Origin: an uncultured Draconibacterium sp.
GTDB taxonomy: Bacteria; Bacteroidota; Bacteroidia; Bacteroidales; Prolixibacteraceae
NCBI RefSeq assembly: GCF_913060805.1
Contig: NZ_CAJXTC010000001.1
Coordinates: forward strand, 1 to 64,000
Direction: 5' to 3'
DNA length: 64,000 bases
In this document: in pieces, positions 6,974-19,106 of the stretch
How the letters are laid out: every line of letters starts with the position of its first letter
Numbering within the stretch: the stretch's first letter is position 1
Made by a program: the position numbers and the translations under genes
Notes under the pieces: generated by a model
Told to the model about the DNA's origin: nothing
The model's database searches: none
The model's input: only the letters and a program-made list of their open reading frames with translations

Positions 6974-7289
6974 GTTTTCATGTTTTTTTGAACCGGGGTA
7001 GAAACATAGTAACTATTACTGATTCTCCTAAGTGCTAACAACATACAGAAAAAAACGATTGGTAAAGCTACTTTGTGAAAGAAAAATTTGAATTTTAGCA
7101 CGAAGTTAACCTGGCTGCATATAATGGGGTAAGCAAATGATGCACAGTTATCTGTGTGTTTTGCGAAACATAATCATAGAAAGGAAATGAAAAAGCCCGG
7201 GGCTGTGTAGATGAAATGAATACAGCCAAGGTTGAGGTGAGCTCCCATCGGCTGACGGATGAGGAGTCAGGTATTTTTGTACTGAATCC
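6974..7289. other. Intergenic region left of the DUF559 repeat unit
   Basis: No credible gene. At 7194-7230 there is an imperfect hairpin (CCCGGGGCTGTGTA ... ATACAGCC) that resembles the perfect terminator-like hairpin at 8167-8208 on the other side of the DUF559 unit. At 7241-7264 the segment GCTCCCATCGGCTGACGGAT also occurs, with one change, inside the third repeat copy (8101-8122). The left flank therefore holds a fragment related to the right flank. The 122-residue reverse frame over 7095-7463 simply reads through these repeats. Confidence 0.5.
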
Positions 7290-7410
7290 TTTACCCTTTT
7301 GTCTGTCGACATTTTCCCTTAAAAGGGAAAAAGGCACTGATGTAAAGTTAGAATGTTGCTTGTAACCGGCTCCCCTTTTGAGGGGAGCTCCCGACAGGGT
7401 GAGGGGTAAA
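7290..7410 (+). repeat. DUF559-associated repeat, copy R1
   Basis: It starts TTTACCC and ends GGGTAAA, so the ends are inverted repeats. Inside are two hairpins: TTTTCCCTTAAAAGGGAAAA (7313-7332) and GGCTCCCC...GGGGAGC, followed by CCGACAGGGTGAGGGGT. The roughly 45-base spacer between the hairpins is almost the same in copy R3. It stands 58 bases upstream of the DUF559 start codon. Related two-hairpin modules occur elsewhere in the window (19052-19106; more loosely 84-123 and 56134-56178). Confidence 0.8.
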
Positions 7411-7468
7411 GAATTTAACTCATAAATTAGTAACTTTAACAATGAATTGAAACCCAAAATCAAAACAC

Positions 7469-7834
7469 ATGCTCTACGAACATATTAAACAAACAACCCG
7501 AAATTTAAGATGGAATACAACTTCTGCAGAAAAAAAGTTATGGAGATACTTACGCAGAAAACAACTGAACGGAAGAAAATTTTTGCGACAACATGCAATC
7601 GTTTATGAATCGATTGGTGATGAACATTTCTTTTATGTACCGGACTTTTACTGTTTCAAAGAAAATATAGCGATTGAATTAGATGGAGAAATTCACAAGT
7701 TCAATAAAAGGAGAGATGAACGACGTGATGAAATATTGAAGAATATGGGAATAAAAATATTGCGTTTTAAAAATGAAGACCTCGAAGATATAAATTCTGT
7801 TTTATTGAAGATTATTGCTGAGTTTGTGGAATAA
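7469..7834 (+). CDS. DUF559-domain protein, Vsr-like PD-(D/E)XK nuclease fold
   Basis: A 121-residue protein made of one DUF559 domain. Family signatures are TSAEKKLWRYLRRKQLNGRK (18-37), the putative PD-(D/E)XK core PDF...IAIELDG (Asp59, Glu70, Asp72) and ILKNMGIKILRFKNEDL (89-105). DUF559 is related to very-short-patch-repair endonucleases; its activity is not established. Its context is the striking part. It lies between direct repeats R1 and R2, with only four bases between its stop codon and R2, and R3 follows. It is read against the flanking reverse-strand operons and looks like the passenger of a small repeat-bounded unit. Confidence 0.85.
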   Translation: MLYEHIKQTTRNLRWNTTSAEKKLWRYLRRKQLNGRKFLRQHAIVYESIGDEHFFYVPDFYCFKENIAIELDGEIHKFNKRRDERRDEILKNMGIKILRFKNEDLEDINSVLLKIIAEFVE

Positions 7835-7838
7835 ATGC

Positions 7839-7952
7839 TTTACCCTTTTGTCTGTCGACATTTTCCCTTAAAAAGGGAAAACAGCGCTGAAGTGAAGTTG
7901 CCTGTAACCGGCTCCCCTGATGAGGGGAGCTCCCGACAGGGTGAGGGGTAAG
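7839..7952 (+). repeat. DUF559-associated repeat, copy R2
   Basis: Same orientation and layout as R1: TTTACCC end, hairpin TTTTCCCTT...AAGGGAAAA, a divergent spacer, hairpin GGCTCCCC-TGAT-GGGGAGC, then TCCCGACAGGGTGAGGGGTA. The left end lies four bases after the DUF559 stop codon. Loop bases differ from R1 while the stems are kept, which suggests that the folded form is what is conserved. Confidence 0.8.
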
Positions 7953-7971
7953 GAAATTTTTTCACTGATTT

Positions 7972-8131
7972 GTTACCCTTTTATCCCCGACGTAAAGTAC
8001 GGGATTTCGCAAGCTCAACTATCAACATTTTCCCTTTTAAGGGAAAAAGGCACTGATGTAAAGTTAGAATGTTGCTTGAAACCGGCTCCCCTTGAGAGGG
8101 GAGCTTCCATCGGCTGACGGATGAGGGGTAG
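7972..8131 (+). repeat. DUF559-associated repeat, copy R3 (longer variant)
   Basis: It starts TTACCC and ends GAGGGGTA. The first hairpin is the perfect palindrome TTTTCCCTTTTAAGGGAAAA. The spacer matches R1 almost base for base. In R3 the segment after the second hairpin is CATCGGCTGACGGATG instead of the CGACAGGG of R1 and R2. R3 also has an extra internal segment near 7985-8022. Three direct copies in 840 bases make recombination or copy-number change likely (inference). Confidence 0.75.
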
Positions 8132-8166
8132 GGGATTTAACAGTTATTTTGTTTTTTAAACAATAA

Positions 8167-19051: not shown

Positions 19052-19106
19052 TCCCTCTCTTTGCAAAGAGAGGGACGATTGTGTCGAAGGCACAATCAGG
19101 GTGAGT
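19052..19106 (+). repeat. Two-hairpin dispersed repeat (DUF559-type module)
   Basis: It begins with a perfect 24-base palindrome at 19052-19075 (TCCCTCTCTTTG and its complement). The hairpin GATTGTG-TCGAAGG-CACAATC and AGGGTGAGT follow. Bases 19067-19106 match 84-123 exactly. Layout (hairpin, second hairpin, GGGTGAG tail) parallels the 3' half of the repeats around the DUF559 gene. Confidence 0.75.

Follow-up and report, generated by a model that had tools for sequence, protein, structure and literature searches.

The DUF559 gene and its flanking modules

The window, the whole stretch of 64,000 nucleotides analyzed here from an uncultured Draconibacterium sp., carries on its forward strand a gene for a 121-residue DUF559 protein (7469–7834; PF04480, E = 6e-27), predicted to be an EDxHD/Vsr-like nuclease. 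Three modules on the same strand accompany the gene as direct repeats. R1 (7286–7415) lies upstream, R2 (7836–7955) right behind the stop codon, and R3 (about 7971–8135) beyond R2. In BLAST comparisons, R1 is 85% identical to R2 over 129 nt and 91% identical to R3 over 90 nt. The coordinates and identities bear out the initial annotation, which had placed the gene between two direct copies with a third one following and with four bases (7835–7838) between the stop codon and the TTTACCC of R2. The inverted ends and the conserved stems with altered loops described there are also present, and R3 carries an extra stretch of ~30 nt. The left part of a copy reads TTTACCC-tail-TTTTCCCTT..AAGGGAAAA, and the right part, when reverse-complemented, is alike (TTTACCCCTC-tail-GCTCCCCT..AGGGGAGC). 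Because the left part approximates the reverse complement of the right part, a copy consists of two “hairpin + tail” units inverted relative to each other and thus forms a REPIN-like module. Upstream of R1, a forward-strand stretch (7232–7271) may be what is left of the right-hand unit of an earlier copy; its profile match is weak (E = 0.022), and it is 86% similar to the R3 end. The profile built from R1, R2, and R3 gave no further match in the window at E < 0.01.

The genome (5.48 Mb in 79 contigs) contains two DUF559 genes. A genome-wide BLAST search with R1 gave 17 matches including R1–R3, of which 14 lie elsewhere and two of these are halves of one copy. As there are just two DUF559 genes, the copies outside R1–R3 are gene-less. 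The second DUF559 gene (L001) has a different unit family at its 3′ end, and two exact forward-strand units of the window, at 87–122 and, gene-less, at 19070–19105, resemble this second family. The gene-less modules previously proposed at 84–123 and 19052–19106 thus do contain units, but these belong to a different family from R1–R3.

The predicted nuclease fold

The AlphaFold2 model of the window protein has a mean pLDDT of 91.8. With this model, Foldseek retrieved two PDB structures, the homing endonuclease I-Bth0305I (3r3p, E = 5e-4) and, at E = 1e-6, a putative endonuclease-like protein (3hrl). Both structures were also matched by profile (3hrl, E = 1e-30; 3r3p, E = 2.8e-6), whereas the single sequence reached just E = 0.28 against 3r3p. 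Both alignments keep E21, D59, E70, D72, H76, and R99 without exception, and the spacings agree with those quoted for VsrA. The modeled DUF559 fold matches the type of the homing endonuclease I-Bth0305I and not that of a REP (Y1) transposase. The initial annotation had put a Vsr-like nuclease in the place of the transposase; the predicted EDxHD/Vsr-like protein resembles a homing endonuclease and not a Y1 enzyme.

Related statements on DUF559 proteins are already in print. One study assigned YcjD from Escherichia coli to the PD-(D/E)XK nucleases, with the YcjD profile retrieving Vsr (PMC1189080). VsrA from Caulobacter, which has a DUF559 domain, was proposed to be Vsr-like (PMC12907096), and one DUF559 gene has already been called EDxHD (PMC9403480). 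Segments with transposase/DUF559 were listed among the recombination hot spots of Legionella pneumophila (PMC12308824). The reports on YcjD and VsrA favor a reading in which DUF559 is a repair nuclease, acting in Vsr-like mismatch repair or in the removal of hairpins or triplexes, with the repeats serving as its substrate or shaping its expression and with no spreading at all. Such a nuclease would leave unexplained why the gene and the units occur as a joint insert in ValS and IleS (see below) and why a genome can hold several divergent DUF559 genes, and we consider it improbable.

We also considered a defense system and rejected it, as the PADLOC matches were partial or weak: the window protein matched DpdF at 9e-6 and PDC-S69 at 6e-4, and YcjD matched Hhe at 0.04.

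Bracketing of DUF559 across bacteria

For a survey of DUF559 loci, a unit was defined by a stem of at least 6 pairs, a loop of 2–10 nt, a C-rich 5′ arm, and a CCC or GGG tail no more than 25 nt away. C-rich units were detected on both flanks of 77 of the 142 distinct DUF559 domains, compared with 3 of 560 control windows drawn from the same stretches as the DUF559 loci, and on at least one flank of 118/142 domains, compared with 32/560 controls. The loci behind these counts comprise the best-scoring matches and 80 kept of 521 relatives, rather than a random draw, with 7 of 149 domains near locus ends set aside. Both flanks were occupied in 53/112 stand-alone genes and any flank in 92/112; the corresponding numbers for domains inside long frames are 24/30 and 26/30. 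We prefer this count to an earlier one of 34/66 against 23/205, which includes some genes twice. DUF559 genes that lack flanking repeats, taken beforehand as an argument against the association, do exist, but they are a minority, with no unit detected on either flank of 24/142 domains.

A separate set from Gammaproteobacteria (the best-scoring 30 loci, one of them set aside) had units on both flanks in 21/29 and on any flank in 27/29 cases, compared with 1/51 and 4/51 control windows, which overlap each other. The strict TM motif (see below) was located within 400 nt of 10 of these 29 genes. By eye, we also found bracketing on named contigs of Spirochaetes, Patescibacteria, Chloroflexi, and Gamma- and Alphaproteobacteria, mostly metagenome bins, with some loci lacking it, and a unit on one side of DUF559 on a contig of a cyanobacterium. 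Similar hairpins in Enterobacter sp. 638 have been read as likely terminators in the excerpted text of PMC2869309, and the flanking hairpins could likewise be ordinary terminators whose bracketing is coincidental. Units also occur upstream of genes and inside reading frames, and control windows are both-sided in just 3/560 and 1/51 cases; coincidental terminators are thus disfavored and, in our judgment, very improbable.

In a comparison of 92 stand-alone loci, the more alike the proteins, the more alike the flanks (rho = 0.41; none of 500 permutations as high). Such a correlation would follow if every nuclease were paired with units of its own, and shared descent of the loci adds to it.

Several of the long DUF559 frames (L286, L293, L296, L308, and L309) resemble IspE, RecG, HsdM-like methylases, or a 1208-residue Planktothrix protein.

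Co-occurrence of DUF559 and units in genomes

PF04480 matches were found in 87 of 149 related genomes. The pattern CCCCYN{4,20}YCCCCN{1,8}GGGGR has a median of 19 matches in these 87 genomes and of 0.5 in the 62 others (Mann–Whitney p = 6e-13, without phylogenetic correction), where matches that overlap each other are counted too, as are the units next to the DUF559 genes. The direction is the same within the genus (32 vs. 4 genomes), in the rest of the family (34 vs. 19), and in the rest of the order (20 vs. 39), and the pattern read backwards gave 159 matches in total compared with 2783 forward. Eight of the 87 relatives with DUF559 have no pattern match, and 13 of the 62 without it have at least five, up to 100 in G080 and 119 in G118. 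In the few stretches of these two unit-rich genomes inspected by eye, we noticed no other nuclease gene.

We searched 274 gammaproteobacterial genomes for the TM motif with the pattern GAGAGGGN{2,5}GGGTGAGGG. When DUF559 matches are required to reach E ≤ 1e-15, the motif occurs in 45 of the 60 genomes that have one and in 30 of the 214 others, again without phylogenetic correction. This cut was picked after weak DUF559 matches had turned up in very long proteins; at E ≤ 1e-3 the numbers are 48/85 and 27/189, and without G156, a genome picked for its DUF559, they are 44/59 and 30/214. The weak matches lie in proteins of ~1500–2000 residues (G166, G202, G308, G342, and others), which we take to be perhaps a different, helicase-like family. 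Fifteen of the 60 genomes with a strong match lack the TM motif, and 14 without a strong match have at least five. Equal repeat density with and without DUF559, which had been named as a refutation, was encountered neither among the relatives nor among the Gammaproteobacteria.

As a separate observation, several stretches of G118 (L197 and L198), which has no DUF559 match, contain single units immediately before start codons.

Alternative states at orthologous sites

DUF559 domains in long frames include in-frame insertions in aminoacyl-tRNA synthetases, in which the hairpins are translated. The host frames ValS and IleS were confirmed by family searches, and LeuS by eye. At one ValS site, we opened 24 loci from among the ValS genes listed, 23 from the genus and L029 from another genus of the family. 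Thirteen are empty (e.g., YKIEGEDGFVTIATTRPE), three contain one unit, two contain gene-less two-unit modules, and six carry an in-frame DUF559. The clear filled elements have GCCCCC at the start and GGGGGC at the end. The ValS copy of DUF559 in G029 is out of frame as read. In this one-contig genome (L162/L032), the ValS reading frame is interrupted at the inserted units or close to them, by either a real lesion or an assembly error. Downstream of the DUF559 site, the ValS genes of L037 and L032 contain another insert, which resembles a module and has no gene (PLNPPEGGNWG..HPSLGGDGGGF). One IleS site is filled in 10 rows (9 genomes), holds remnants in two, and lacks the insert in 15 rows (14 genomes).

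The locus of the window was compared in 17 relatives, none of which has DUF559 there in a profile search extending up to 1500 nt beyond the neighboring gene, and less far at some loci. Six of them (L170, L172, L173, L174, L176, and L192) have one module without DUF559 by profile search, in the position of R3, L169 retains a left-end fragment identified by eye, and ten have no module. The gene-less module L010 of the genome itself is common to G005; the same site is without a module in G013 (gap of 6 nt) and G025 (gap of 42 nt), and other species carry different inserts. Varying presence and empty sites at the same loci, which the initial annotation proposed to look for, are seen at ValS, IleS, and the window locus, and for the gene-less module at L010. 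Judged from the ValS states and from presence and absence at the window locus, the modules behave as insertions. We saw no target-site duplication by eye at the ValS, IleS, and L010 sites, which have diverged.

At the L010 site, G009, G036, and G008 (L321, L329, and L331) have a ~550-bp insert with a small ORF and flanking GCGC-type repeats. The small ORF is presumably similar to the four-helix-bundle/23S rRNA IVP family, and the insert is perhaps another element made of a small gene and repeats. In several species (L320, L323–L327, and L330), the same gap holds an unrelated long hairpin repeat (TTGTCATTTCGAAGGAGG..CGAAATGACA); this repeat is also found in L008.

The embedded DUF559 copies in ValS and IleS are under purifying selection. 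The median pN/pS over six loci is 0.16 in ValS (host, 0.19); in IleS it is 0.24 (host, 0.11), also over six loci, out of nine tried, three having been missed by a text pattern. The silent divergence of the embedded DUF559 in ValS (pS = 0.59) is lower than that of the host gene (0.71), which may hint at spread between lineages. The IleS copies (pS = 0.75 vs. 0.76 for the host gene) are no closer at silent sites and less constrained than their host, so there is no sign of homing at IleS.

These inserts bear on another explanation, in which DUF559 is cargo: triplex-forming units would be fragile recombination hot spots that owe their spread to host repair or to a different enzyme, and small genes such as DUF559 would become trapped between copies. 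It is in keeping with the unit-rich genomes without DUF559, with the gap at the L010 site that holds other inserts, including a small unrelated gene, and with the link of TM repeats to instability drawn in excerpts of Holder et al. (2015; PMC4666352). Trapped cargo would not be expected to be one gene family bracketed this often across phyla, with protein and flank similarity going together, nor to have a homing-type nuclease fold and embedded copies under purifying selection. We regard the cargo explanation as unlikely, though less so than that of a repair nuclease. The location of DUF559 inside or between paired hairpin repeats in many kinds of bacteria, including E. coli, makes it a leading candidate for the enzyme spreading these repeats.

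Triplex geometry of the units and ycjD from E. coli

Of the 275 units flanking DUF559, 100 have asymmetric arms, in which the tail can be compared with the purine arm. The mirrored fit was better in 60, worse in 16, and equal in 24 of them; related loci give similar units, so that the p-value of the 60 to 16 comparison is too small. As a group, the DUF559-flanking units have the predicted geometry of an intrastrand triplex, namely a hairpin and a tail mirroring its purine arm.

According to the excerpted text of Holder et al. (2015; PMC4666352), TM repeats are known from >260 genomes, with 23 in E. coli, and are tied to instability. In the same excerpts, the E. coli copies have no mobility gene nearby and are always intergenic, and A and B types form inverted pairs at five E. 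coli sites. The gene ycjD (1,351,407–1,351,760) is annotated as a DUF559 gene, and its stop codon lies 168 nt from TM_ECO 9 (1,351,239–1,351,204). A decayed unit overlaps the stop codon. By a rough hand estimate, the chance of a given gene lying that close to one of 18 sites is ~0.3%. The name “ycjD” does not occur in the accessible text of that report. The gene is present in 3365 of 5426 E. coli genomes. The two ycjD-less loci that we opened offered no clean empty site and contain efflux and regulator genes instead, which fits the replacement of ycjD by the eef operon in other lineages, as described in part of PMC12817139.

A proposed nuclease-driven mobile element

We interpret the locus as probably a gene-carrying copy of a mobile, nuclease-driven REPIN-like element that homes between modules. 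The building block would be an inverted pair of units, each made of a C-rich hairpin and an outer tail mirroring its purine arm, so that one strand could fold into a hairpin-triplex. Gene-less modules would represent the non-autonomous form. Modules bearing DUF559 would be the autonomous form, with the gene inside one module or, as in the window, between direct copies. The DUF559 protein would recognize units of its own family in their folded form and cut or nick there, and repair from another copy would turn an occupied site into the gene-carrying state. Homing between modules of this kind could give the R1–gene–R2 arrangement beside R3. More rarely, repair would seed a module at a new site, and gene-less modules and single units would arise where the gene or one of the ends is lost. 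The bracketing, the co-occurrence, the alternative states at orthologous sites, the purifying selection on embedded copies, the mirror geometry, and the predicted nuclease fold come from the data, whereas we infer the recognition and cutting of units and the movement of the modules by DUF559 through such cutting.

The parallel with REP elements drawn in the initial annotation holds for the inverted unit pairs, the gene-less copies, the gene bracketed by its own unit type, and the presence and absence at orthologous sites, but not for the enzyme, which is not Y1. REPIN/RAYT systems (Bertels and Rainey, 2011; PMC3116915) share with the present element the inverted palindromic unit pairs, the numerous copies without a gene, an enzyme encoded by one gene between repeats of its own type, and several families per genome. 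Their enzyme is a Y1 HUH transposase, whereas here it is DUF559 (EDxHD/Vsr-like); unlike in REPIN/RAYT, the tail mirrors the stem, essential genes also harbor in-frame modules, and DUF559 can sit inside one module. As the bracketed gene encodes a PF04480 protein with a nuclease fold and no Y1, the element would work like REPIN/RAYT without being a member. A GTAG or CGTC tag marks the foot of REPIN/RAYT units. The accessible part of a REP survey (PMC3733652) does not contain “DUF,” and its sole passage with “endonuclease” concerns insertion sequences.

TM_ECO repeats (Holder et al., 2015; PMC4666352) resemble the present units in the hairpin with a mirror tail, the inverted A/B pairs, and the tie to instability. 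They are reported to have no mobility gene and, in E. coli, to lie always between genes, whereas the present units are partnered by a nuclease gene and are in part intragenic. The EDxHD homing endonucleases (I-Bth0305I, 3r3p) are alike in the predicted fold, the profile match, the embedding in conserved genes, and the empty and filled states, as far as the excerpts of PMC3943268 go. Unlike them, DUF559 is flanked here by repeats and apparently not located in a self-splicing intron or intein, and the 121-residue protein is without a separate DNA-binding region.

On a wider scale, we lean slightly toward a single class of mobile elements across bacterial phyla, made up of DUF559 and intrastrand-triplex repeats. 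In this class, a homing-type nuclease would recognize the hairpin-triplex, spread the pairs in trans, and ride inside them, also in frame in essential enzymes without splicing, and YcjD would be the missing mobility enzyme of the E. coli TM repeats. TM repeats, reported from >260 genomes and linked to rearrangement, are not known to have a means of spreading, and DUF559 is a common domain without an assigned function. If the two belong together, a gene of E. coli K-12 gains a role that can be tested directly, genome change driven by repeats gains a candidate engine, and the REPIN/RAYT lifestyle gains a second enzyme unrelated to the first; the odd in-frame inserts in aminoacyl-tRNA synthetases would be accounted for as well. 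The generality of the bracketing, the insertion behavior of the modules, and the triplex-motif geometry of the units go beyond the initial annotation. Among the titles and abstracts found by our literature search, which covered mainly open-access papers, none joined DUF559 to such repeats.

Rickettsia palindromic elements are palindromic repeats kept in frame within protein genes, as here. They are not known to contain a nuclease gene.

Two loci, L067 (G062) and L082 (G034), contain tandem DUF559 genes with equal match scores, ~1.2–1.4 kb apart, which alternate with units.
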